Shown here in pieces: positions 48,650 to 57,466 of a stretch of 64,000 nucleotides of DNA; the stretch's first letter is position 1; each line of letters opens with the position of its first letter. The position numbers and the translations under genes were made by a program. The stretch covers positions 496,001 to 560,000 of the forward strand of contig NZ_JAUOTO010000006.1 of NCBI RefSeq assembly GCF_030546645.1. The letters are read 5' to 3'. The notes below the pieces were generated by a model that had not been told where the DNA came from, made no database searches, and worked only from the letters and a program-made list of their open reading frames with translations. This DNA comes from Flavitalea plasmicola. GTDB taxonomy: Bacteria > Bacteroidota > Bacteroidia > Chitinophagales > Chitinophagaceae.

Positions 48650-49132
48650 CTAATTTTTCAACAATACCAACTGACCCAGGTGATAAGCAATATGACTAGC
48701 CCGGCCGATCAAAACATTCAGCTTATTGCGATGCGGCTCCTTTATGAAGTCTTCCTCACTGACGGAATTATGCCGCTGAAGCCATTGTTCCTCCGAAAGA
48801 CTGGCGAGACGCTCTCCCAAATGGCCGTGCACCTCCGTCCAGTAGGCTCTTAACTGAAGGAGAGAGGGTATTGGCTTACCGGATTTATCAGGGCTGCTGA
48901 TAAAAGTCTCTTCCAGCTCCGGATGAAGCCTTTCTCCCAGTCCAAACAGCGGTAGTATGGCGTCATGTACGGCAATGAGATGCCCCATCAGATAGATACC
49001 CGTGTTACGTCCGGGAGCTATCTCTTTTGACAGCTGCTCGTCTGTCAGACTATTAAATAGGCTAGTGACTCTCTTCAGCTGCCCTTCCCAGGTGAGCAGG
49101 CCCATTTTTACAAAAAGGGGTTGGTTTTGCAT
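48650..49132 (-). CDS. DinB-like protein
   Basis: This 160-residue protein is a four-helix bundle of the DinB family: GIYLMGHLIAVHDAILPLF near residue 47 supplies His ligands and the C-terminal RASHIAYHLGQLVLLKN supplies the third. It faces the Kelch regulator gene with a 1-base gap between stops, so the two are convergent. Its substrate is unknown. Confidence 0.88.
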   Translation of the reverse strand: MQNQPLFVKMGLLTWEGQLKRVTSLFNSLTDEQLSKEIAPGRNTGIYLMGHLIAVHDAILPLFGLGERLHPELEETFISSPDKSGKPIPSLLQLRAYWTEVHGHLGERLASLSEEQWLQRHNSVSEEDFIKEPHRNKLNVLIGRASHIAYHLGQLVLLKN

Positions 49133-49777: not shown

Positions 49778-49809
49778 TTGGTGGTATCAGTAAAAATGTT
49801 GCATCTTTG
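49778..49809 (+). promoter_or_regulatory. Probable promoter of the attenuated tRNA array
   Basis: TTG at 49778-49780 and CATCTTTG at 49802-49809 are separated by 21 bases, matching the Bacteroidota pattern TTG-N19-21-nAnnTTTG with one deviation at the first -7 position. Transcription would start near 49815, about 20 bases before the leader ATG. Confidence 0.6.
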
Positions 49810-49834
49810 CACTGTTAAAGAAATCATAAAACAA

Positions 49835-49924
49835 ATGCATCGCACTTTTATCATATCAGGAGCAAAATGGAATAGTCGTGAAGACTATCATCCAGGTGTG
49901 CGGGGCAAATTTGCATGTAAATAG
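49835..49924 (+). CDS. Putative 29-residue leader peptide of the tRNA-array attenuator
   Basis: An open frame of 29 codons plus stop starts at ATG 49835 and begins MHRTFIISGAKWNSR. The first 15 residues include Met, His, Arg, Phe, Ile, Ser, Lys and Trp, which are exactly the eight specificities of the tRNA array 230 bases downstream. They include the rare codon ATA (codon 7, read by Ile-UAU) and AGT (codon 14, read by Ser-GCU). A small hairpin (ATAGTC 49872-49877 with GACTAT 49883-49888) lies in the coding part, and codons 22-24 contain the antiterminator arm. This is a proposed leader peptide; translation is not proven. Confidence 0.5.
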   Translation: MHRTFIISGAKWNSREDYHPGVRGKFACK

Positions 49925-49977
49925 TTTAGAATTAAAACACTATAACGAGCCCCGCAAGAAATTGTGGGGCTTTTTTT
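49900..49977 (+). promoter_or_regulatory. Transcription attenuator 1: antiterminator arm and terminator
   Basis: The terminator is a 10-bp stem (49948-49957 with 49962-49971, loop GAAA) followed by seven T. Upstream GCGGGGC at 49900-49906, inside the leader frame, is perfectly complementary to GCCCCGC at 49949-49955 of the terminator 5' arm. The two pairings exclude each other. If a ribosome stalls early in the leader, the upstream arm is free to pair and the terminator cannot form, the classic arrangement of amino-acid operon attenuators. Here the downstream genes would be tRNAs instead of biosynthetic enzymes. Confidence 0.6.
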
Positions 49978-50026
49978 ATGTCCTTGTGTTCAAAACGATA
50001 TAGCTATTCCCGCAACGGGTATAGGG

Positions 50027-50157
50027 CCGGTCACCATCGGTTTAATAGTCGAATGGGAGAGACATGTCTGAAAAGACCGTGGTATATGCCAATGGGATCT
50101 GTGTAGTGCGGATCTTCCAGATAGCAAGCCCGGTCAACAATGACCGGGCTTTTTTTT
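50027..50157 (+). promoter_or_regulatory. Second terminator/attenuator-like element directly before the tRNA array
   Basis: A perfect 10-bp stem (50127-50136 with 50141-50150, loop ACAA) followed by a T run ends at the first base of the tRNA-Met gene. Upstream CCGGTCA at 50027-50033 duplicates part of the 5' arm and could pair with TGACCGG of the 3' arm, which would block the terminator. A strong hairpin (50004-50024, CCCG-CAA-CGGG core) precedes it, and an 18-codon frame (50053-50106) lies between. The terminator is clear; the regulatory reading is inferred. The stretch 49979-50156 holds no other gene that I can support. Confidence 0.5.
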
Positions 50158-50228
50158 GCGATCTGGTGTAACGGCAACACCCTACTCTCATAAGGTGGAG
50201 GATCCTGGTTCGAGTCCGGGGGTCGCAA
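50157..50228 (+). tRNA. tRNA-Met (anticodon CAT)
   Basis: All four stems pair: acceptor TGCGATC/GGTCGCA (one T-G), D stem GTGT/ACAC with loop AACGGCA, anticodon stem CTACT/GGTGG around CTCATAA, T stem CCTGG/CCGGG around TTCGAGT. The discriminator is A; no CCA is encoded. Anticodon CAT could also be an Ile2 tRNA after lysidine modification. It is the first gene of an eight-member array. Confidence 0.85.
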
Positions 50229-50235
50229 CACAAAT

Positions 50236-50308
50236 GTTGTCTCTAGCTTAACAGGTAAAGCGCTTCGGTGTGAACGAAGAGTACAGGGTTCGAGTCCCGG
50301 GGACAACC
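50236..50308 (+). tRNA. tRNA-His-like (anticodon GTG), slightly degenerate
   Basis: The anticodon stem CTTCG/CGAAG with loop GTGTGAA gives anticodon GTG, and the D arm GCTT/AAGC and T loop TTCGAGT are normal. The acceptor GTTGTCT/GGACAAC pairs, but there is one extra base (C at 50243) before position 8, and the T stem has an A-G mismatch. The G-1:C73 pair of normal tRNA-His is therefore not formed in register. It may be functional, decaying or a mimic. Confidence 0.55.
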
Positions 50309-50313
50309 GAGAA

Positions 50314-50442
50314 TGGCTTATAGTTCAATGGAAGAATGCCACGCTACGAACTTGGTGACAACCGAGCAACGCGAAGGTTGCGAGCGAGGAGGAACGAGGA
50401 ACGATGTTCCGACGAAGTTCTGTTCGACTCTTCTTAAGCCAG
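50314..50442 (+). tRNA. tRNA-Arg-like (anticodon ACG) with about 57 extra bases
   Basis: The ends pair perfectly (TGGCTTA 50314-50320 with TAAGCCA 50435-50441). The D arm GTTC/GAAT is fine and the loop CTACGAA gives anticodon ACG. The anticodon stem CCACG/CTTGG has one C-T mismatch. Between 50356 and 50422 lies a structured insert in place of the normal variable loop and T-stem 5' strand: hairpins GCAAC/GTTGC and GGAAC/GTTCC, and CGAAG (50413-50417) that can pair with CTTC(T) after the T loop if TTCTG is looped out. The insert repeats GACAACCGAG found at the end of the preceding His-like gene. It could be an intron, a chimera or a pseudogene. Confidence 0.45.
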
Positions 50443-50449
50443 CAAATAC

Positions 50450-50521
50450 TGGCCCGTAGCTCAACAGTGGAGCGCCGCACTTTTAATGCGGAGGCTCCGG
50501 GTTCGAGTCCCGGCGGGCCAA
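50450..50521 (+). tRNA. tRNA-Lys (anticodon TTT)
   Basis: Acceptor TGGCCCG/CGGGCCA, D stem GCTC/GAGC, anticodon stem CCGCA/TGCGG around CTTTTAA, T stem CCGGG/CCCGG around TTCGAGT are all paired. The D loop AACAGTG lacks the usual adjacent G18-G19, which may weaken the elbow. The discriminator is A; no encoded CCA. Confidence 0.8.
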
Positions 50522-50527
50522 CTGGAA

Positions 50528-50600
50528 TGGTCAGTAGCTCAATGGTTAGAGCAAGTGCCTTATACGCACTGCGTTACCAGTTCGAGTCTGGTCTGACCAA
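50528..50600 (+). tRNA. tRNA-Ile (anticodon TAT)
   Basis: All stems pair perfectly: TGGTCAG/CTGACCA, GCTC/GAGC with loop AATGGTTA, AGTGC/GCACT around CTTATAC, ACCAG/CTGGT around TTCGAGT. Anticodon TAT reads AUA directly, a rare solution in bacteria, which usually use a lysidine-modified CAT tRNA. Discriminator A. Confidence 0.85.
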
Positions 50601-50625
50601 CCCGGATGAATAGTGCAACGAAAAC

Positions 50626-50712
50626 GGAGAGTTGACAGAGTGGTAATGTGCAGGCCTGCTAAGCTTTGGCTATCCTTTTTTGGATACGAAGGTTCGATCC
50701 CTTCACTCTCCG
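50626..50712 (+). tRNA. tRNA-Ser (anticodon GCT)
   Basis: This is a class II tRNA with acceptor GGAGAGT/ACTCTCC, a 3-bp D stem ACA/TGT, loop CTGCTAA with anticodon GCT and a variable-arm stem TATCC/GGATA with a T6 loop. The T stem GAAGG/CCTTC encloses TTCGATC and the discriminator is G, as usual for Ser. The first anticodon-stem pair (27-43) is a C-T mismatch. Confidence 0.8.
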
Positions 50713-50717
50713 CAACT

Positions 50718-50792
50718 GGCGCTTTGACAGAGATGGTTCTATTGCGCCGGCCCGAAAAGCCGGTGATCGGGGTCCGATTCCCCGGGGCGCCG
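50718..50792 (+). tRNA. tRNA-Phe-like (anticodon GAA), degenerate
   Basis: The acceptor GGCGCTT/GGGCGCC, anticodon stem CCGGC/GCCGG and T stem CGGGG/CCCCG pair well. However, loop CCGAAAA has C instead of the invariant T33, the T loop TCCGATT has C at position 55, the D stem has a mismatch, and about three extra bases separate the D and anticodon arms. The discriminator G is followed by CCA, perhaps by chance. It looks like a decayed or non-translational tRNA. Confidence 0.5.
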
Positions 50793-50796
50793 CCAT

Positions 50797-50868
50797 ACGG
50801 GATTAATGTAATTGGTAACAGGTCAGTCTCCAAAACTGACGATACAGGTTCGAATCCTGTATCCCGTG
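50797..50868 (+). tRNA. tRNA-Trp (anticodon CCA)
   Basis: Acceptor ACGGGAT/ATCCCGT, anticodon stem TCAGT/ACTGA around CTCCAAA, T stem ACAGG/CCTGT around TTCGAAT are all paired. The D stem has three pairs plus an A-G. Discriminator G as in other tRNA-Trp. It ends 17 bases before the YkuK-like gene, so they probably share a transcript. Confidence 0.85.
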
Positions 50869-50885
50869 CGATAAAAGATAGAAAA

Positions 50886-51371
50886 ATGGAACAGCAGCAG
50901 AAGTGGAGGCGCCTTGACGGCACTCCCGTAAAAAGGAACATCGAAGATGAGATCAGGTCCGCTCTTGTCAGGGAAAAGGAGGCAGGCCACGAACTAAAGG
51001 TCTGCATCGGAACGGATAGCCAGGTGAAAGGCGCCGAGACGGCATTCGCCACCGTCATCGTCTTCATCCGGAAAGGGAAAGGAGGTTTCATGTATATTAA
51101 TACTGAGATCTCCCGAAAGAAGATGAGCGTCAAAGAAAGGATGTTGAAAGAAGTGGCCAGAAGCATCGACGCGGCATACCCGCTGAGCCGTCTGTTCACT
51201 TTGTACGGCGTGGACCTGGAAATCCATGCGGATATCAATACCAACCCGGGCTTCAAAAGCAACCATGCATTGAAAGAAGCAATGGGCTATATCCAGGGTA
51301 TGGGCTTTTCTTTCCGGGCAAAACCGGAAGCTTTCGCAAGCTCCAGCTGCGCAAATAAGGTAGTACAGTAA
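50886..51371 (+). CDS. YkuK/DUF458 RNase H-like protein
   Basis: This 161-residue protein has an RNase H-like fold: the first strand has KVCIGTDSQVKG (first acidic residue Asp near 43), RKGKGGFMYINTEIS supplies the second strand, GVDLEIHADINTNPG near 120 the central acidic strand and GMGFSFRAKPEAFASSSCANKV the C-terminal helix region. DUF458 proteins are widespread and uncharacterised; the fold suggests a nuclease or nucleic-acid-binding role. ATG 50886 is chosen over an upstream open frame that would run back through three tRNA genes. Its place at the end of the tRNA array suggests it trims or degrades tRNA-like RNA. Confidence 0.85.
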   Translation: MEQQQKWRRLDGTPVKRNIEDEIRSALVREKEAGHELKVCIGTDSQVKGAETAFATVIVFIRKGKGGFMYINTEISRKKMSVKERMLKEVARSIDAAYPLSRLFTLYGVDLEIHADINTNPGFKSNHALKEAMGYIQGMGFSFRAKPEAFASSSCANKVVQ

Positions 51372-51383
51372 AGAACAAGCCAG

Positions 51384-52418
51384 TCAAAAAGATCCTGGAC
51401 CAGTTGAAGGATGATACAGCTCATTCATCAACCGTACCTTTTTCTGAATGATGCGTACAAGTCGGGCAGGGGAGAGGACCTTCAATCCCTCCCCAAACCC
51501 CATCAATTCGCGCTCCAGCTCAAAGTTTGGAATAACTACGATGCTGAAATGCGTACCGGTCTGCACCTCTTCCAGGATCTTTTGTGTAGGATGGATAGGC
51601 TTGGTCTTGATATACGGCGCCTGCACATGGCTGGCCCAAAAGATCACTTCCATGGGTGCTTCGCCGGTGTTACGCGTCACGCCTACGATCGGCAGGAAAT
51701 AAGTATGCGGATCGAAGTCCTTTTGCCAGCGGAACGTTTCCGAAGGCAGCAGCATGATATCCTGGATGCGGTCCAGGGCAAAGGTAATGATGGCCTTTCC
51801 CGACTTCAGCATACCAAGGACAAACCAGCGGTTGCGATATTCTTTCAGTAAATAAGGATAGAATACCTGGCTGCTGCCGGTCCGGGCCTTAAAGGATTGA
51901 TAGGAGAGTTGGACCGTTGTCCGGGAGATGATGGCCTTGTAGAGGACATCCAGCCATTGGATGCCGGTCAATAGCTCATTCTTCTCGAAATCGATGACCG
52001 AAGGAGAATGATTTTGCTCGCTGTGGATCTTGTCCTCCAGCCGGCTGATCATTTCAGACATTTCGGTAAAATGGCTGAATCCTTTGAATTGATGTAGCAG
52101 ACCGGATACTTCCTGCAGAATGCCCAGGTCACGGGCGCTGAGAGGGATATTGGTGATGGAATAGGCAGGGTCTTCATAACTATAGTACTTACGGTCACGG
52201 ACAATGATCGGAGCATTATAACCCAGCTTGTCGCTTCGCATGGCATTGAGATCCAATCGGATAGTACGGAGACTTACGCCGCGTTGGATCCCCTCGAATT
52301 CATAGAGGGCTTCATTGCAGGCTTCGATAAGGTCCTCGATCGTCCATTTCCGCCGACGGTTCTGAAGACATTTGTCGATAGTGCGATATCGGATCAGGGC
52401 ATTGCGGTTAATGGGCAT
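51384..52418 (-). CDS. WYL-domain transcriptional regulator
   Basis: This 344-residue protein has an N-terminal winged helix (about 1-75; RRKWTIEDLIEACNEALYEFEGIQRGVSLRTIRLDLNAMR), a helical linker, a WYL domain (about 150-245; YKAIISRTTVQLSYQSFKA, FYPYLLKEYRNRWFVLGML) and a C-terminal WCX-like extension. WYL domains bind ligands, including nucleic acid or nucleotide signals in some cases. The start at 52418 begins the DNA-binding domain; the longer frame adds 48 hydrophobic residues read from the promoter region. It is divergent from the Ro60-like gene and is the likely regulator of the RNA-repair operon, in place of RtcR known from proteobacteria. Confidence 0.88.
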   Translation of the reverse strand: MPINRNALIRYRTIDKCLQNRRRKWTIEDLIEACNEALYEFEGIQRGVSLRTIRLDLNAMRSDKLGYNAPIIVRDRKYYSYEDPAYSITNIPLSARDLGILQEVSGLLHQFKGFSHFTEMSEMISRLEDKIHSEQNHSPSVIDFEKNELLTGIQWLDVLYKAIISRTTVQLSYQSFKARTGSSQVFYPYLLKEYRNRWFVLGMLKSGKAIITFALDRIQDIMLLPSETFRWQKDFDPHTYFLPIVGVTRNTGEAPMEVIFWASHVQAPYIKTKPIHPTQKILEEVQTGTHFSIVVIPNFELERELMGFGEGLKVLSPARLVRIIQKKVRLMNELYHPSTGPGSF

Positions 52419-52457
52419 CAGCAAGAATTTTTGCAAAAGAAAGAAAAAATATTTTAC

Positions 52458-52476
52458 TGTGCAAGTAGGTTGCACA
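52458..52476. promoter_or_regulatory. Candidate operator between WYL regulator and Ro60-like gene
   Basis: TGTGCAA (52458-52464) and TTGCACA (52470-52476) form a perfect 7-bp inverted repeat with a 5-base spacer, 40 bases from the regulator start and 61 from the Ro60 start. It is well placed to bind the WYL protein and control both directions. Confidence 0.55.
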
Positions 52477-52524
52477 CTTCGATGCGAGGTTTGTAATGTC
52501 AACAGAAAACAAGACTTAATCACC

Positions 52525-52530
52525 AGGAGG
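52525..52530 (+). promoter_or_regulatory. Strong Shine-Dalgarno site of the Ro60-like gene
   Basis: A full AGGAGG lies 6 bases before ATG 52537. Bacteroidota genes usually lack such sites, so this one decides the start and suggests unusually efficient or transferred expression signals. Confidence 0.65.
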
Positions 52531-52536
52531 CATAAC

Positions 52537-54051
52537 ATGAAATTCAACGTAAAAGCCATCACCGCTAAGCTGCTGAACCACGAAGGGGAAACAGCCTTTG
52601 CCCTTACGCCCCAGATGGAGCTGTATACGATGGTCGCCGTATCTGCGCTGAATGATCAGTTCTATGAGAACGCGGAAGACAAGCTGAAAAGGCTGCGGAA
52701 GCTCATCGAAAAGAACGAGGCCGCATTCGTAGCCCGTCTGGCCGTCTATGCCCGGGAGCAGATGCACCTGCGGACCATTCCGCTGGTACTGGTTGTTGAG
52801 CTGGGAAAGGTCCATCGTGGTGATGGTGTTGTAGCCAAACTGGTCGCCCGGGTAATACAACGTGCGGATGAGATCACGGAGCTGCTGGCCTATTATCAGC
52901 TGGCCAACAAGAGGACCCAGGTAAAGAAACTGAACAAGCTTAGCAAACAGCTGCAGAAAGGCCTGGCGGCATCATTCAATAAATTTGACGAATACCAGTT
53001 CGCCAAATACGATCGGGCCAACCAGGTAAAGCTGCGCGATGCGCTGTTCCTGGTCCACCCTAAGGCAAAAGACGATGCCCAGCAGGTGATTTTCGATAAG
53101 ATTGTAAAGAATGAGCTGAAGACCCCCTACACCTGGGAAGTGGAATTGAGCGCATTAGGCCAGCTGGCTTTCAATACGGAAGCCGTACGCAGCAAGGCCT
53201 TTAAGGAAAAATGGGAAGAGATGATCTTCAGCAACAAGCTGGGTTATATGGCCACCTTGCGGAACCTCCGGAATTTCCTGGAAGCGGGCATCAGCAACGA
53301 AGCATTGAATAAGGTGTGTTCATACCTGTCCGATGGGAAAGCCGTAACATCCAGCCGGCAGCTGCCCTTCCGTTTCCTTAGCGCTTACAGGGAGCTGAAA
53401 GACGTAAAGGACGGCAGGGTGGGGAATATCCTGGAAGCGCTGGAAGCCGCCATTCTTTGCAGCGCCCTCAATATCCCCGGATACGATGACAACACCCGGG
53501 TGGTCGTTGCCGCAGACGTCAGCGGCAGCATGCAGGCGGCCATCAGCCCGAAAAGCAAGGTGCAGTATTTTGATATAGGTCTTGTCCTGGCGATGTTATT
53601 ACGCAGCCGGTGCAGGAATGTCATCACCGGGATGTTCGGGAATACCTGGAAAACGATCAACGTGCCGAAGAACAATATCCTCTCCAACGTGGAAGAGTTT
53701 CGCCGGAGAGAAGGAGAGGTGGGGTACAGCACGAACGGATACCTCGTGATCCAGCAGCTATTAAACGATTCACAAATCGTTGATAAAGTGATGATGTTCA
53801 CGGACTGCCAGTTATGGAACAGTAATAACAACGGGTATCACATCAATACACTGTGGAAGAGCTATAAAAAGCTGGCGCCACAGGCAAAGCTCTACCTCTT
53901 CGACCTTGCAGGTCACGGACAGTCACCTTTGCAGCTGGAAAAAAATGATGTCTACCTGGTGGCGGGATGGAGTGATAAGATCTTCCACGCCCTGCAGGCC
54001 ATCGAGGAAGGAGGAAATGCTATAAAGAGGATCGAGAACCTTAATCTATGA
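52537..54051 (+). CDS. Ro60-like TROVE / vWA domain RNA-binding protein
   Basis: This 504-residue protein is a bacterial Ro60 (Rsr-type). The TROVE HEAT-repeat ring covers about residues 1-310 (ALTPQMELYTMVAVSALNDQFYE, REQMHLRTIPLVLVVELGK). The vWA domain covers about 318-490 with a complete MIDAS: D-x-S-G-S in VVAADVSGSMQ and the late Asp in VMMFTDCQLW. Ro60 rings bind 3' ends of misfolded RNA in the central hole and Y RNA on the surface. The start is fixed by the AGGAGG site; a longer frame upstream crosses the operator. A Y RNA candidate, tRNA-like RNAs, slipin and RtcB follow on the same strand. Confidence 0.93.
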   Translation: MKFNVKAITAKLLNHEGETAFALTPQMELYTMVAVSALNDQFYENAEDKLKRLRKLIEKNEAAFVARLAVYAREQMHLRTIPLVLVVELGKVHRGDGVVAKLVARVIQRADEITELLAYYQLANKRTQVKKLNKLSKQLQKGLAASFNKFDEYQFAKYDRANQVKLRDALFLVHPKAKDDAQQVIFDKIVKNELKTPYTWEVELSALGQLAFNTEAVRSKAFKEKWEEMIFSNKLGYMATLRNLRNFLEAGISNEALNKVCSYLSDGKAVTSSRQLPFRFLSAYRELKDVKDGRVGNILEALEAAILCSALNIPGYDDNTRVVVAADVSGSMQAAISPKSKVQYFDIGLVLAMLLRSRCRNVITGMFGNTWKTINVPKNNILSNVEEFRRREGEVGYSTNGYLVIQQLLNDSQIVDKVMMFTDCQLWNSNNNGYHINTLWKSYKKLAPQAKLYLFDLAGHGQSPLQLEKNDVYLVAGWSDKIFHALQAIEEGGNAIKRIENLNL

Positions 54052-54055
54052 GAAT

Positions 54056-54088
54056 ATGACAGCTCTCGGCTCCGGCCGGGGCTGTCAT
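54056..54088 (+). terminator. Stem-loop after the Ro60-like gene
   Basis: ATGACAGC (54056-54063) pairs with GCTGTCAT (54081-54088); the loop contains a smaller CGGC/GCCG stem. There is no long T tract, so it may be a processing or stability element separating the mRNA from the Y RNA as well as a terminator. Confidence 0.5.
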
Positions 54089-54111
54089 TTAAAAACCAGA
54101 AAGATCTTTGA

Positions 54112-54250
54112 CGAAAGAAATATAAGGATGTCGTAGGAGTGAGTTCCATCGTCCAAACCAGGGGTAGGACCCCGGAGTGATCCGGGGAGAGGTGCAAATC
54201 CTCGCTTGACAGCGCCCCGTTCTCAGTCCGCTTGTTACTCCTTATTTTTT
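54112..54250 (+). ncRNA. Candidate Y RNA (Ro60 partner)
   Basis: A structured RNA of about 135 bases lies just after the Ro60 gene. Its ends pair (AGGAGT 54135-54140 with ACTCCT 54237-54242, alternatively ATAAGGA with TCCTTAT) and are followed by a T6 tract. The 5' strand contains GTAGGAGTGAGTT, very close to the conserved GUAGUGAGUU of the Ro-binding stem in animal Y RNAs. Inner hairpins include GGGG/CCCC around TAGGA, CCGGA/TCCGG around GTGA, and a T-arm-like GAGG/CCTC around TGCAAAT. Bacterial YrlA RNAs combine a Ro-binding stem with a tRNA-like module, which fits. A GATCTTTG -7-like element ends at 54109. Confidence 0.65.
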
Positions 54251-54260
54251 AATGATATTT

Positions 54261-54392
54261 TACAGGTGCCGTAGACAAGAGTTACTTCGGGACGAAGAGG
54301 TGGCGGGTTCGAATCCCGCTGGGTTGCCCCGTGCAATCCATAGCTCAGCGGTTAGAGCACTTTGCGTACTCTTTTCGACTTGTTGCCCTGTA
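54261..54392 (+). ncRNA. Circularly permuted tRNA-like RNA, Pro (anticodon CGG) type
   Basis: The tRNA parts occur in swapped order: anticodon loop TTCGGGA (54286-54292), CGAAG, variable AGGTG, T stem GCGGG/CCCGC around TTCGAAT, acceptor 3' strand TGGGTTG (54320-54326), C73, a 5-base linker, then G-1, acceptor 5' strand CAATCCA (54334-54340), TA, D stem GCTC/GAGC with loop AGCGGTTA and anticodon 5' strand CTTTG (54360-54364). Rejoined at 31/32, every stem pairs fully and T8, A14, G18, G19, A21, T33, G37, T54, T55, C56, A58 and C61 are present. The loop with G37 matches bacterial tRNA-Pro(CGG). Leader AAGAGTTAC (54277-54285) pairs with trailer GTACTCTT (54366-54373), and outer TACAGG with CCTGTA. 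It is either a permuted tRNA gene or a Y RNA with a tRNA-like head. Confidence 0.65.
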
Positions 54393-54489
54393 AATACTTT
54401 ATTCCCTTTCAAAAGGGAAACCTCGGTTATGCCGATTCCCCGCGTTTCAAAAGACGCAACAGTACAGGTGTAGTAACTCCCTGTATCCT
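54393..54489 (+). ncRNA. Structured RNA segment of unknown class
   Basis: Several hairpins can be seen: TTCCCTT/AAGGGAA (54402-54419), which competes with GGGAA/TTCCC enclosing TCGG/CCGA; GCGTTT/AGACGC (54442-54457); and TACAGG/CCTGTA (54463-54485). An outer TGTTGC (54381-54386) to GCAACA (54456-54461) pairing would enclose the first part. TTTCAAAAG occurs in two of the hairpin loops. The last hairpin resembles the tRNA-Trp T arm with an altered loop. I cannot assign a function. Confidence 0.4.
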
Positions 54490-54600
54490 GCAGCAACCGG
54501 CCATATCCACGGGTTCGATTCCCATTTCGTCTTGAACACGAAACGCTCAATGGAAGAGCACTACCTTGAAAACGTAGGTTGGAAAGCAGCACACCGCTGC
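54490..54600 (+). ncRNA. Second permuted tRNA-like element, Phe (anticodon GAA) type, degenerate
   Basis: Here a T arm (ACGGG/CCCAT around TTCGATT, one C-A mismatch) and acceptor 3' strand TTCGTCT (54526-54532) precede, by a 3-base linker, the acceptor 5' strand ACACGAA (54536-54542), D stem GCTC/GAGC with loop AATGGAA, and a complete anticodon arm CTACC/CGTAG around TTGAAAA, the loop typical of tRNA-Phe. The break is in the variable region. The acceptor has one C-C mismatch, position 8 is A, and pair 31-39 is C-C. Leader CAAC (54494-54497) can pair with trailer GTTG (54578-54581), and a GCAGC/GCTGC hairpin closes the 3' side. It is weaker than the Pro element but has the same swapped order. 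Confidence 0.5.
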
Positions 54601-54866
54601 TATAAAAATGGTGAAACAACTAAGCCAGGCTTATGCGCCGGCGATGAACAGAAAACCCGGTGAAACTCACCGGAATGGACGTCCACCGCAATCCGGCATG
54701 GGCCAGCAGCCCCGTCATAAGAGTTAGTCAGCATTTCTCTACCCCGGCTCACCGGGGGCAGGAAAAGGCAACTATATCAGCGACCCGTCTCCGCACATGC
54801 AGGATGGCAAATAACCCCTGGCTTTTACACAAAACCAGTATATAAAAATTGATAAATGACAACAAA
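54601..54866 (+). other. Structured leader upstream of the slipin/RtcB genes
   Basis: No open frame of convincing quality is present. Strong hairpins include CCGGTGA/TCACCGG (54657-54673, loop AAC), GGGC/GCCC around CAGCA near 54700-54712 and CCCCGG/CCGGGG around CTCA (54742-54757). None is followed by a T tract, so they look like folded non-coding or leader RNA. It does not fit a riboswitch class that I can recognise. Confidence 0.4.
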
Positions 54867-55967
54867 ATGAAAAAGGTAATGATCAACGCCTACCAGGTAG
54901 GACTGTTGTACAAGCATGGAACGTATCAGCACATGTTGAAAGAGGGGGCCTACTGGCAATGGCCATCCCAAAGGATAGAGGTATATGACCTCACCGCACC
55001 CTTTACTCCCGCTTGCGAGCTCAATATCCTGTTGAAGGACGAAGCCCTCACGGAATCCCTGCATGTAATTGAAGTAAAAGACCACGAACTGGTCCTACAA
55101 TATGAAAATGGATTTTTGAAGCAGGTCCTCACCGCCGGGCGCTATGCCTACTGGAAAGGGATCGTCGCCTATGGCTTCGTCCGCCTGGATCTCGGGAAAA
55201 TCGAGATCATGGAGAACCTGGACCGTACCACGCTGCTGCATAAGCTGGTTTCCCCCTATGTTCGGACGTACACCATAGAGAGCTACGAAAAGGCACTGTT
55301 GTTCGTAGATGGAAAGTATGTACAGACCCTGGAAAGTGGTGTATATTACTGGTGGAAGAACGGCATAGCCATCCATGTGGGCAAAGTGGACACCCGGCAG
55401 CTGCAGCTGGAGATCAACGGACAGGAGATCCTCACGAGAGACAAAGCCGCCCTGCGGATCAACGCATGGGCTCAGTATAGGATCGAAAATATTGAGAAGG
55501 CGCTGCTGCAGAATAAGGACCACGAAAGGCAGCTGTACGTGGCTTTTCAGCTGGCTCTTCGGGAGTATGTCGGAGGACTGAGCTTTGACGAGCTGGTGGA
55601 AAAAAAGGAGACCGCCTTGCCTTATGTAAAGGAAAAGGTACAGCAGACGGCGGAAACGCTGGGTATACAGGTGTCCGGCTTCGGCATCCGCGACATTGTC
55701 CTGCCGGGTGAAGTAAAAGACATCATGAACCAGGTGCTCGTGGCGGAAAAGAAAGCGCAGGCCAACATCATCCTCCGTAGGGAAGAGACGGCCAGCACCC
55801 GAAATCTGCTGAATACCGCCAAGTTGATGGAGGACAACCCCATGCTGTTCAAGCTGAAAGAAATGGAGTACGTCGAAAAGATCGCAGAAAAGGTCAGCAG
55901 CATCAGTGTCAATGGCAATGGTGTGTTGATCGACCAGCTCCGGCAGATCTTCGCGACCTCAAAGTAA
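54867..55967 (+). CDS. Slipin-like SPFH/band-7 protein of the RtcB operon
   Basis: This 366-residue protein has an SPFH domain (about 125-300; ILTRDKAALRINAWAQYRIENIEKAL, LREYVGGLSFDELVEKKETALPYVKEKVQ, IRDIVLPGEVKDIMNQVLVAEKKAQANIILRREETA). It lacks the N-terminal membrane hairpin of ordinary slipins. Three GxYxxW-type repeats (EGAYWQWP, AGRYAYWKG, SGVYYWWKNG) show a threefold duplication of the domain entry. Such proteins accompany RtcB in several lineages and form oligomeric scaffolds; the RNA-repair role is inferred from neighbourhood. It ends 12 bases before RtcB. An upstream TTG at 54849 is less likely than ATG 54867. Confidence 0.85.
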   Translation: MKKVMINAYQVGLLYKHGTYQHMLKEGAYWQWPSQRIEVYDLTAPFTPACELNILLKDEALTESLHVIEVKDHELVLQYENGFLKQVLTAGRYAYWKGIVAYGFVRLDLGKIEIMENLDRTTLLHKLVSPYVRTYTIESYEKALLFVDGKYVQTLESGVYYWWKNGIAIHVGKVDTRQLQLEINGQEILTRDKAALRINAWAQYRIENIEKALLQNKDHERQLYVAFQLALREYVGGLSFDELVEKKETALPYVKEKVQQTAETLGIQVSGFGIRDIVLPGEVKDIMNQVLVAEKKAQANIILRREETASTRNLLNTAKLMEDNPMLFKLKEMEYVEKIAEKVSSISVNGNGVLIDQLRQIFATSK

Positions 55968-55979
55968 AAAAACAAAAAA

Positions 55980-57428
55980 ATGGGAAAATTAAAATTAACA
56001 GGAAAAGATCTGCGATCCATCGGTTATCCCGAAGGTCCCGTGATCAGCATAGCCATGAATATCATGGAGAAGAATTACAAATTTACAGAACAGGAGGAGG
56101 CGATGAATTTATTGAAGCAAATATTGGCCGCGCCTGTGGAATACGAAAATGACGCCGTATTGGGCCTGATAGCCCGGCAATTGATACCAAAAAAGGACGA
56201 GACAGAAGGCGTTGAGATCTCCCTGAACCAAACAGGTGTGCCGTTTAATATTTTTGGAAGCGACCAGATCGAACAGGGCGCTACCCACCAGATGTACCAG
56301 GCGGCAAAATTGCCGGTTGCTATAGCAGGAGCCCTGATGCCGGATGCGCACGCCGGGTATGGATTGCCCATTGGAGGTGTACTGGCAACGGAAAATGCAG
56401 TTATTCCTTACGGAGTAGGGGTCGACATCGGCTGCCGTATGTGCCTGTCTGTTTTCGACATCAACCCGAAAGAGCTGTTGCAGCGGGAGCACTATTTTAC
56501 ACGGGAGCTCAACGAGGCCACGCTGTTCGGGGGAGGAAGACAATTCGACCAGAGCACACCGCACGAGGTCATGGAAAGGAAGGAGTTCACGGAGATTTCT
56601 ATCCTGAAACCCCTGCAATGGAAAGCCGCGAAGCAATTGGGCTCCTCCGGCTCGGGAAATCATTTCGTGGAATTCGGCGTCGTGGACATCAGCGAAAAGG
56701 ATCCTACCCTGAACCTTGAGCCGGGACAATACCTTGGCCTGCTCTCGCATTCCGGATCGAGGGCCCTGGGGGCGATTATTGCCGGCCATTACACGAAGGT
56801 GGCCAAACAGAAACGAAGGCTACCGGGGGAAGCGAACAACCTGGCCTGGCTGGACCTGAAGGAAGAAGAAGGTATGGAATACTGGCTAGCGATGAACCTG
56901 GCCGGAGACTATGCGGCTGCCTGCCACGAAGTCATCCATGATAAGATCGCCCTGCAATTGGGAAGACGCCCTTTGAAAAGGGTAGAGAACCACCACAACT
57001 TTGCCTGGAAGGAATGGTATGAAGGACGTGAGGTCATCGTCCACCGAAAAGGAGCTACGCCCGCCGGAAAAGACGTCCTGGGCATTATCCCGGGATCGAT
57101 GACGGCGCCTGGCTTTATCGTAAAGGGTAAAGGACAGGAAGCGTCTCTGTCTTCCGCCTCCCATGGGGCCGGCAGAAAGATGAGCCGGACGACCGCTCTT
57201 AACACGGTGACGAAAGACCTGCTGAAAAAGACCTTGCATGAACATGGCGTAACGCTCCTGGGAGGAGGCCTGGACGAAGCGCCGCAGGCGTACAAGGATA
57301 TCGAAGCCGTGATGCAGTCCCAACGGCAATTAATAGATGTGCTGGGAAAATTCACCCCAAGGATCGTAAAGATGGATGGCGCACAGCCAAAACCTTGGCA
57401 AAAAGGCAAAGCCGTCGAAGGAGAATAA
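55980..57428 (+). CDS. rtcB: RtcB RNA 3'-phosphate/5'-hydroxyl ligase
   Basis: This 482-residue protein shows the full set of RtcB motifs: LMPDAHAGYGLPIGGV near residue 120, GVDIGCRM (metal-binding Cys) near 145, GSSGSGNHFVEFG near 225, LLSHSGSRALG near 255, ENHHNFAW near 330, HRKGATPAGKD near 350 with the guanylylated His region nearby, and SHGAGRKMSR near 400. It joins 2',3'-cyclic phosphate or 3'-phosphate RNA ends to 5'-OH ends using GTP and Mn2+, as produced by anticodon nucleases or tRNA splicing. Operon context with slipin, Ro60, Y RNA and tRNA-like genes points to repair or maturation of tRNA. No archease (RtcB activator) or RtcA gene is in the window. Confidence 0.95.
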   Translation: MGKLKLTGKDLRSIGYPEGPVISIAMNIMEKNYKFTEQEEAMNLLKQILAAPVEYENDAVLGLIARQLIPKKDETEGVEISLNQTGVPFNIFGSDQIEQGATHQMYQAAKLPVAIAGALMPDAHAGYGLPIGGVLATENAVIPYGVGVDIGCRMCLSVFDINPKELLQREHYFTRELNEATLFGGGRQFDQSTPHEVMERKEFTEISILKPLQWKAAKQLGSSGSGNHFVEFGVVDISEKDPTLNLEPGQYLGLLSHSGSRALGAIIAGHYTKVAKQKRRLPGEANNLAWLDLKEEEGMEYWLAMNLAGDYAAACHEVIHDKIALQLGRRPLKRVENHHNFAWKEWYEGREVIVHRKGATPAGKDVLGIIPGSMTAPGFIVKGKGQEASLSSASHGAGRKMSRTTALNTVTKDLLKKTLHEHGVTLLGGGLDEAPQAYKDIEAVMQSQRQLIDVLGKFTPRIVKMDGAQPKPWQKGKAVEGE

Positions 57429-57433
57429 GCCGC

Positions 57434-57466
57434 AGGCCGTCTCGACTATTTTGAGACGGCCTTTTT
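57434..57466. terminator. Bidirectional terminator after rtcB
   Basis: AGGCCGTCTC (57434-57443) pairs perfectly with GAGACGGCCT (57453-57462), followed by a T run to 57466. It lies between rtcB and a convergent alpha/beta hydrolase gene, whose stop falls in the loop. Confidence 0.85.

Follow-up and report, generated by a model that had tools for sequence, protein, structure and literature searches.

Organization of the locus

The window considered here comprises 64,000 nucleotides (nt) of Flavitalea plasmicola (contig NZ_JAUOTO010000006.1, positions 496,001 to 560,000; the genome comprises 8.73 Mb on 19 contigs). The region of interest spans positions 49778 to 57466 of this window (Table 1) and looks like two units: an array of transfer RNA (tRNA) genes with a gene for a DUF458/RNaseH_like protein, preceded by two putative serial attenuators, and a group of genes for Ro60, Y RNAs, an SPFH/Band-7 protein and the RNA ligase RtcB. 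A gene for a WYL regulator lies between them on the opposite strand. A previous interpretation made from the letters of the window (here, the sequence-only reading) had described a single combined island; its parts are present, one of the permuted RNAs with uncertainty, and their arrangement points to two units. Its assignments of an RNase H-fold protein, a WYL regulator, a Ro60-like protein, a slipin-like protein and RtcB agree with the Pfam matches. We consider the main finding to be one that goes beyond this reading: the short open reading frames (ORFs) of the attenuators would encode leader peptides with near-complete coverage of the amino acids.

Table 1. Features of the tRNA array and Ro60-RtcB region, with positions counted from the first letter of the window.
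Feature	Position	Strand	Basis and remarks
Putative promoter of the attenuated unit	49778..49812	+	YAnnTTTG box CATCTTTG at 49802-49809; TTG at 49778 as possible -33 element
Leader ORF 1, MHRTFIISGAKWNSREDYHPGVRGKFACK	49835..49924	+	18 different amino acids in 29
Putative antiterminator strand TGCGGGGC near the end of leader 1	49899..49906	+	complementary to the 5' arm of terminator 1
Intrinsic terminator 1	49947..49979	+	11-bp stem, U tract; starts 22 nt past the leader-1 stop
Leader ORF 2, MSLCSKRYSYSRNGYRAGHHRFNSRMGETCLKRPWYMPMGSV	49978..50106	+	17 different amino acids in 42
Candidate antiterminator strand for terminator 2, GACCG (weak)	50075..50079	+	p = 0.38 against dinucleotide shuffles
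Intrinsic terminator 2	50126..50159	+	U tract abuts the 5' end of tRNA-Met
tRNA-Met(CAT)	50157..50229	+	ARAGORN; 51.0 bits
tRNA-His(GTG)	50236..50308	+	ARAGORN; 42.4 bits
tRNA-Arg(ACG), variable region split by a dispersed repeat	50314..50442	+	24.6 bits; anticodon by eye
tRNA-Lys(TTT)	50450..50522	+	ARAGORN; 70.2 bits
tRNA-Ile(TAT)	50528..50602	+	ARAGORN; 66.4 bits
tRNA-Ser(GCT)	50626..50713	+	ARAGORN; 49.3 bits
tRNA-Phe(GAA), C replaces U33	50718..50795	+	ARAGORN; 39.4 bits; loop by eye
tRNA-Trp(CCA)	50797..50869	+	ARAGORN; 65.5 bits
DUF458/RNaseH_like protein (PF04308), array-type paralogue	50886..51371	+	Pfam, E 3.8e-35
WYL regulator (WYL + WCX), divergent from Ro60	51384..52418	-	Pfam; start codon assumed
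Ro60 (TROVE + vWA)	52537..54051	+	Pfam TROVE, E 1.1e-27
Y RNA with 5' motif GGATGTCGTAG...TTCCATCG	54124..54243	+	motif search; ends set by closing stem AAGGA/TCCTT
YrlA-like Y RNA: Y stem enclosing T-arm, acceptor stem and D-arm	54262..54391	+	Rfam, alignment
Second permuted tRNA-like RNA (T-arm, acceptor, D-arm, anticodon-like arm), uncertain	54450..54590	+	by eye
SPFH/Band-7 (slipin-like) protein	54867..55967	+	Pfam Band_7
RtcB RNA ligase	55980..57428	+	Pfam RtcB, E 3.7e-79
GC-rich inverted repeat and U tract 3' of RtcB, probable end of the unit	57435..57466	+	read from the sequence

Two putative serial attenuators upstream of the array

The promoter and attenuators proposed by the sequence-only reading are borne out: a promoter-like box of the form YAnnTTTG, which we take to be the -7 box of Bacteroidota, is followed by two intrinsic terminators, each with a leader ORF before it. 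This single box would serve both leaders, which stop 19-22 nt before their respective terminators. The start of leader 1 was chosen 3' of the box, the same frame being open from an ATG at 49796. The amino-acid diversity of leader 1 exceeds expectation (p = 0.014), and it contains cognate codons for 7 of 7 array anticodons other than CAT (p = 0.0036; the null consists of 10 genes). The candidate antiterminator strand near its end could form 8 bp with the 5' arm of terminator 1, a match that dinucleotide shuffles rarely reach (p = 0.003); this pairing forms in the predicted fold of the leader-1 RNA without the 3' arm, and the terminator dominates when the RNA is folded whole. For leader 2, the fold probability is 0.81, versus 0.58 in mononucleotide shuffles.

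Recurrence in related genomes

Related loci (designated L with a number) were collected in several ways. A Ro60 search of 294 Chitinophagaceae genomes gave a match in 21, and 20 loci were enlarged from the other 20 genomes; a scan of genome contigs yielded 80 loci, of which at least seven (L092-L097, L120) belong to genomes that had come up before. The idea of leaders covering the amino-acid alphabet was formed on these first-set loci, before both follow-up sets. For set 1, 20 loci were hand-picked from the 30 that a DUF458 search listed, after tRNA counts and before the leaders were read; the 10 omitted loci include the window (L169) as well as L193, L196 and L198, whose genomes are in the first set. 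Set 2 consists of 20 of 58 genomes with a DUF458 match among 197 genomes of the family of Chryseobacterium populi (Weeksellaceae), weighted towards lower identity; it is not independent by descent, because Chryseobacterium is already in the first set. DUF458 as such proved unsuitable as an array marker and was discarded in this role: 271 of the 294 Chitinophagaceae genomes match, many via a more distant paralogue only.

Attenuators of the same kind precede loci with tRNA array, DUF458, SPFH and RtcB as well as loci with Ro60, Y RNAs and RtcB in three classes of Bacteroidota. All 20 loci of set 1 have at least one attenuator and 17 have two (single in L199, L200 and L217). At least one tRNA lies upstream of DUF458 in 17 of the 20 loci, all of them attenuated, and 14 have at least two tRNAs; the three loci in which no tRNA was called (L200, L210, L218) are also attenuated, here with a search range extended to 4 kb upstream of DUF458. 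In set 2, 19 of 20 loci combine an array of at least two tRNAs with two attenuators, and the remaining locus (L262) has neither tRNA nor attenuator. The calls are concentrated where they would act: in the 17 tRNA-bearing loci of set 1, 31 attenuator-like calls fall in 17,917 nt upstream of the arrays, versus 4 in 396,029 nt elsewhere (both strands, same criteria). A promoter box lies at most 75 nt upstream of the leader-1 ATG for 35 of 37 leaders (shuffled mean 1.3, maximum 5) and at leader 2 for 1 of 36. Polymerase would therefore need to pass both terminators. Since 18 of the 20 set-1 loci are in genomes without a match in the Ro60 search, the core seems to consist of attenuator and DUF458, usually with tRNAs, SPFH and RtcB; Ro60 and Y RNAs are optional.

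The sequence-only reading had called for a search for co-occurrence, and the relatives indeed carry similar, variable tRNA arrays with DUF458, SPFH and RtcB, sometimes with Ro60 and Y RNAs, behind attenuators of the same kind; tRNA parts are thus present in related loci. Among the enlarged Ro60 loci, 7 of 20 (L070-L076) have at least two tRNAs near Ro60. Among the 80 scanned loci, attenuators precede arrays or Ro60 in Chryseobacterium (Flavobacteriia), Hymenobacter (Cytophagia) and others; for example, Hymenobacter L101 has a double attenuator followed by Ro60, a PF10021 (microbial PARG) protein, a run of Y RNAs (by eye) and RtcB, with no tRNA array. These relatives also bear on the possibility that the Ro60/RtcB half of the window is under the WYL regulator alone and that the adjacent tRNA array is functionally separate. 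In the window and in L089-L091, WYL is divergent to Ro60 and attenuators are seen before the array only. Counted over 78 of the 80 loci, a WYL gene and an attenuator call upstream of Ro60 tend to exclude each other: 34 loci have neither, 21 have the attenuator alone, 21 have WYL alone and 2 have both (p = 0.013). This tendency is modest, and the table behind it still holds the spurious-looking calls L097, L141 and L157. Against a separation, the double attenuator in L070 and L072-L074 precedes Ro60, Y RNAs and the tRNA array in this order, with RtcB downstream in L070, L072 and L074 and no further attenuator on that strand in the locus scan; in L201-L203 the attenuators precede tRNA array, DUF458, SPFH and RtcB. 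We regard functional separation in the window as rather unlikely.

Another explanation takes the array as tRNA cargo derived from a mobile element or phage, with an anti-defence role, the short ORFs being incidental. Arrays of tRNAs are known in phages and plasmids (PMC12803027, PMC6409571), and the viral contigs L236, L243 and L244 carry Ro60 among 10-25 tRNAs. Yet none of the 34 viral loci examined has an attenuator call, genome contigs from three classes repeatedly show attenuators with the same layout, and these are kept where no tRNA was called (L200, L210, L218 and Hymenobacter), which makes this explanation very improbable.

Spacing, pairing and folding of the leader ends

The distance between leader stop and hairpin is 19-33 nt in 25 curated leaders of 14 loci, which were chosen by eye with 0-110 nt allowed. 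The same range holds in a set of 41 leaders, the 16 additional ones stemming from finders that required 15-36 nt. For leader 1, the leader end pairs with the terminator's 5' arm better than dinucleotide shuffles do in 19 of 21 cases; for leader 2 this holds in 9 of 20. One finder kept only antiterminator scores of at least 12, and the pairing of the Hymenobacter leaders is therefore partly selected. Both strands vary together across lineages, with seven different sequences for leader 1: GCGGGGC/GCCCCGC, TTTGCAGGGC/GCCCTGCAGA, TGAGGCG/CGCCTCG, GGTTCGG/CCGAACC, GTTCGGGT/ACCCGAAC, CGTTTTGGGC/GCCCGAAACG and CGGACGTT/AGCGTCCG (L260). Set 2 has other terminator sequences than Chitinophagaceae, with leader ends that change accordingly. 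As long as the 3' arm is missing, the mean probability of upstream pairing by the 5' arm is 0.78 (leader 1) and 0.76 (leader 2), versus 0.48 and 0.53 in mononucleotide shuffles, and the individual value exceeds its own shuffle mean in 73 of 73 cases; with a ribosome modelled at the stop codon, the terminator forms at 0.96 and 0.97, respectively. This analysis counts the second leader of L211 as leader 1.

Amino-acid coverage and codon use of the leaders

The joint leaders of a locus contain all 20 amino acids in 13 of 17 loci of set 1 and in 18 of 19 loci of set 2. Compared with windows of equal length from neighbouring proteins (pools of 110 and 60 proteins), diversity is elevated at p <= 0.05 in 25 of 32 automatically called leaders of the 17 set-1 tRNA loci and in 27 of 39 leaders of set 2. 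The 30-residue leader 1 of L209 and that of L212 each contain all 20 amino acids (p = 0.00002 each). The property belongs to the reading frame: leader 1 averages 18.4 different residues when read in frame, versus 14.4 and 14.6 in the two other frames (27 leaders), and leader 2 averages 19.2 versus 17.4 and 17.1. Start codons and leaders of the first set were curated by eye, with gene-end-like calls dropped from its diversity and pairing statistics (L097, L139 at 8658, L141, L150, L157, L167). In both follow-up sets the longest ATG start was used, which can inflate diversity, and one of the 39 set-2 leaders (the first of L261) resembles a gene end and was kept.

The leaders also differ from genes in their codons. 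In set 1, Ile is encoded by ATA in 49 of 102 cases (fraction in genes 0.20), Leu by CTA in 15 of 71 (0.035), Arg by CGA in 37 of 99 (0.068), Ser by AGT in 46 of 99 (0.20) and His by CAT in 50 of 55 (0.63); the leaders of the first set give the same picture. These five codons are read by the anticodons TAT (or lysidine-modified CAT), TAG, ACG, GCT and GTG, respectively, each of which is found in some arrays. Across 25 loci, 188 of 189 array anticodons (CAT left out) have a cognate leader codon, with 162.1 expected. A closer correspondence, in which the composition of the leaders mirrors the isotypes of the array, was considered and rejected (rho 0.06). Since the frequency of an amino acid in the leaders shows no correlation with that of its isotype in the array, the leaders would test more than the replacement kit supplies. 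Likewise, the codon bias fits 'sensitive codons' better than a one-to-one match to the array, because the anticodons TAG, TAT and GCT are rare or absent in the set-1 arrays and codons ending in A or T are widely favoured.

The leaders might instead encode functional small proteins, the terminators merely setting a basal level of expression. Such a role would fit ORFs of 27-57 codons in array loci that are partly alignable within a family. It is hard to reconcile with the window and L089, whose leaders keep composition better than order (by eye), with last codons that are coupled to the antiterminator, and with substitutions that are only mildly biased towards third positions; we give this alternative next to no weight.

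Proposed mechanism

In the mechanism we propose, each attenuator is built from a short leader ORF and the terminator behind it, the final codons of the ORF being able to base-pair with the terminator's 5' arm. With all tRNAs present, the ribosome would reach the stop codon and cover the antiterminator, the terminator would form and transcription would end. If a tRNA is scarce, the ribosome would stall upstream, the antiterminator would bind the 5' arm, and transcription would run on into the array and DUF458; in many relatives SPFH and RtcB would also be reached, in some Ro60 and Y RNAs. The leaders would act as a test of the alphabet, jointly requiring in most cases all 20 amino acids and biased towards codons of single or minor tRNAs, so that the cell could notice the loss of almost any tRNA. 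Among the products, RtcB would religate broken tRNAs, Ro60 with the Y RNAs would deal with RNA that is misfolded or broken, and new tRNAs would come from the array. The sequences themselves show the ORFs, the terminators, the complementary strands, the breadth of amino acids, the biased codons and the recurrence of the layout. We infer translation of the leaders, stalling and antitermination in vivo, as well as tRNA breakage as the natural trigger, the latter because of the output genes.

On the sequence evidence, it is likely that the array encodes replacement tRNAs held off by two serial attenuators with alphabet leaders under one promoter. The wider claim is somewhat less secure, and we lean towards it: two serial leaders, both under selection to require almost every tRNA at a vulnerable codon, would form a whole-alphabet checkpoint. 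Acting in cis, it would monitor tRNA integrity and turn on replacement tRNAs and an RNA ligase in three classes of Bacteroidota, with the serial attenuators working as an AND gate that rejects brief pauses. If so, a cell could detect the destruction of any tRNA by reading a short text that contains all letters. This would give silent tRNA arrays a regulator and a function, would tie RtcB, Ro60 and Y RNAs to a tRNA-damage signal without a protein sensor, and would predict which codon stalls activate the system. The attenuators could also serve as reporters of tRNA cleavage; cultured isolates are available, for example Paraflavitalea sp. CAU 1676 (L096). The sequence-only reading had already suggested that stalled translation switches on replacement tRNAs beside Ro60 and RtcB. 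The relatives strengthen this core; the parts concerning permuted RNAs and novelty fall short of what was suggested.

Several observations weigh against these interpretations. The case for attenuation is built from sequence throughout. In the window, the diversity of leader 2 is by itself unremarkable (p = 0.44) and its candidate antiterminator is no better than dinucleotide shuffles (p = 0.38); the same holds for the leader-2 pairing in 11 of 20 cases, and the leader-1 pairing fails in L073 (p = 0.56) and L103 (p = 0.35). The match between leaders and arrays is loose: despite the enrichment of CTA, ATA and AGT, the 14 set-1 arrays with at least two tRNAs contain Leu(TAG) in none, Ile(TAT) in 4 and Ser(GCT) in 3; the per-locus test of codons against anticodons is weak (Fisher 0.034); and the enrichment of amino acids in the leaders does not follow the isotypes of the array (Spearman 0.06, p = 0.81). 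The leaders also show a general preference for codons ending in A or T (CAA 0.71 versus 0.40, TCA 0.31 versus 0.13, TTA 0.30 versus 0.14). Differences by codon position number 433, 497 and 589, a mild third-position excess. The Hymenobacter leaders are less diverse (15-18 residues), with no tRNA array called, and plausible leader-like calls that were left out, namely in L146 (16 and 16 residues), L158 (14; also 17 and 19) and L071 (11), would lower the average of the first set. Combined p-values are indicative only: the leaders are homologous, so values that ignore shared ancestry overstate the case, and the null pools are small. Finally, an alphabet leader would also sense amino-acid starvation or ribosome-targeting antibiotics.

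Relation to known systems

Attenuators of amino-acid operons (trp, his and ilv type) combine control codons in a leader ORF with mutually exclusive antiterminator and terminator structures under one promoter. The arrangement described here shares leader ORF, structural exclusion and single promoter. It differs in that the trp, his and ilv leaders are enriched in one amino acid or a small number of them and regulate biosynthesis, whereas here two serial leaders with nearly all 20 amino acids precede tRNAs and RNA repair genes. Two other leaders are comparable. In the PA5471.1-armZ leader of Pseudomonas, lack of the CCA-adding enzyme leads to stalling and antitermination; the codons Gln3 and Phe4 are implicated, and the leader controls an efflux anti-repressor rather than tRNAs or RtcB (PMC13041342). 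For the toiL upstream ORF of Escherichia coli, a ribosome that stalls at any point of the ORF is proposed to relieve repression of the downstream gene; toiL acts on translation and Rho-dependent termination in a toxin-antitoxin operon, and the parts of the article consulted describe no alphabet composition (PMC12121999).

With respect to the output, a very similar gene set with another regulator is that of Anabaena, where TrcR represses an operon of 26 tRNAs, where rtcB, slipin and a TIGR02452 gene rise in the trcR mutant, and where translation stress derepresses the tRNA operon and rtcB (PMC10272220). As in the window, a tRNA array goes with rtcB and slipin; in Anabaena the array is silent, and these genes and that for the TIGR02452 protein are under one regulator that translation stress relieves. 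The differences are a trans-acting ribbon-helix-helix (RHH) repressor and a split location, with the array on a megaplasmid and the other genes on the chromosome; the strings 'attenuat' and 'Ro60' do not occur in the text (PMC10272220). An RHH repressor like TrcR was not found among 8 scanned window proteins, and no genome-wide search for RHH proteins was made. The rsr-yrlBA-rtcBA locus of Salmonella unites Ro60, Y RNAs with a tRNA-like domain and RtcB, and responds to damaged tRNAs (PMC7790460). The window locus also combines Ro60, Y RNA and RtcB; the Salmonella operon in addition has the activator RtcR (with a CARF domain) and RtcA, and the terms 'attenuation' and 'tRNA genes' are absent from the text (PMC7790460). 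Neither the RtcA cyclase nor the sigma54 activator RtcR was found among the 8 scanned window proteins (48.6-58.4 kb), the rest of the genome not being searched. The novelty suggested in the sequence-only reading needs narrowing: a stress-induced array co-regulated with rtcB, slipin and TIGR02452 is known (PMC10272220), and an attenuated tRNA array or a leader peptide with all amino acids was not found among the listed titles and abstract beginnings of open-licence PMC articles. Leader-peptide attenuation is known; a whole-alphabet leader applied to tRNA replacement and repair would be new.

These comparisons also suggest a more general function, similar to that of PA5471.1 or toiL: the attenuator would sense starvation or ribosome inhibitors of any kind, the array and RtcB would belong to a broad translation-stress response, and tRNA breakage would be one input and not the selected one. 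An all-codon leader cannot distinguish between tRNA loss, lack of an amino acid and a slowed ribosome; for toiL, stalling at any position of the ORF has been proposed as a way to sense several classes of antibiotics that target the ribosome (PMC12121999), and the Anabaena tRNA operon is activated by translation antibiotics (PMC10272220). The genes behind the attenuators speak for a narrower role, as they are mainly tRNAs, DUF458, SPFH and RNA ligase, with no biosynthesis, efflux or resistance gene recognised among them. The same applies to the leader codons, which favour those of single or minor tRNAs according to general decoding rules. A general stress sensor is a serious possibility, to which we grant somewhat less than even chances.

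Ro60, Y RNAs and permuted RNAs

The Y RNA candidate noted earlier is supported by a motif search. Its 5' motif occurs 178 times in the window (14 kb searched) and its relatives, always on the strand of Ro60, and Y RNAs alternate with tRNA genes in one array in L070 and L072-L074 (by eye). An Rfam search for Y RNAs in 14 relatives yielded no match that reached the gathering scores. Two RNAs with tRNA parts in permuted order had been proposed in the sequence-only reading. One of the two is clear and of the described YrlA kind, for which we assume a permuted order of the tRNA-like module. The Rfam model YrlA (RF02553) matches at 54286-54382 with 32.7 bits (E 7.8e-4), below its gathering score of 69, and an alignment of 22 YrlA-like sequences, that of the window included, has 30 consensus pairs, 21 of them with compensatory changes. 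The permuted RNAs as such were therefore rejected as a novelty, since the clear one is YrlA-like and supported by covariation. The second, recognised by eye, is partly conserved in one relative (L089), and its minimum free energy fold lacks some of the arms. Its anticodon, also by eye, would be GAA in the window and GAT in L089; a tRNA-like RNA that is fully permuted would be unusual in a bacterium.

The vWA_Ro60 match in the Ro60 protein lies slightly below the cut-off (27.1 versus 27.7). A second Ro60 of the window genome (42% identical, G000:C17:291062-292516; L052, L088) has no tRNAs or other tested genes within about 9 kb. The viral contigs L236, L243 and L244 encode a distant Ro60 (33-36% identity) among 10-25 tRNA genes, with no attenuator calls, possibly a phage-side counterpart. 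Viral DUF458 matches amount to 3 loci (33-37% identity), with no tRNA called.

Array tRNAs and neighbouring genes

ARAGORN calls seven tRNAs within 50157-50869. The eighth of the eight tRNA or tRNA-like genes proposed earlier, tRNA-Arg(ACG), stays below threshold (gathering cut-off 29 bits), because about 60 nt are inserted in its variable region; the insert (about 50360-50421, repeat span 50350-50428) matches 11 places in the genome, its own copy included. An array of eight intact genes was hence rejected. Other copies of the anticodons GTG, ACG, TTT, GCT, GAA, CCA and CAT are listed outside the array, and the array copies are diverged from their housekeeping counterparts (by eye). A second Ile(TAT) was not found among 42 other tRNA places, a list that also lacks Ile(GAT) and may be incomplete. 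The C in place of the conserved U33 in tRNA-Phe might allow it to escape nucleases that require U33, or might make it decode poorly.

A second DUF458 copy of the genome is 66% identical (G000:C3:86196-86660). A search of solved structures for DUF458 gave no match at E <= 1, and PADLOC returned WYL-type matches for the regulator and otherwise weak ATPase matches only. In several attenuated operons other than that of the window, an AAA ATPase gene lies between array and DUF458 or just 3' of DUF458 (L205:5490-6560, Pfam AAA; L201:6862-7938 and L211:1092-2165, by eye). The flanking window proteins comprise, according to Pfam, a DinB_2 protein, an alpha/beta hydrolase and one protein without a match. 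Proteins of the DinB_2 family are found inside or beside several islands, namely at 48650-49132 of the window and in L205 (Pfam) as well as in L070 and L074 (by eye).

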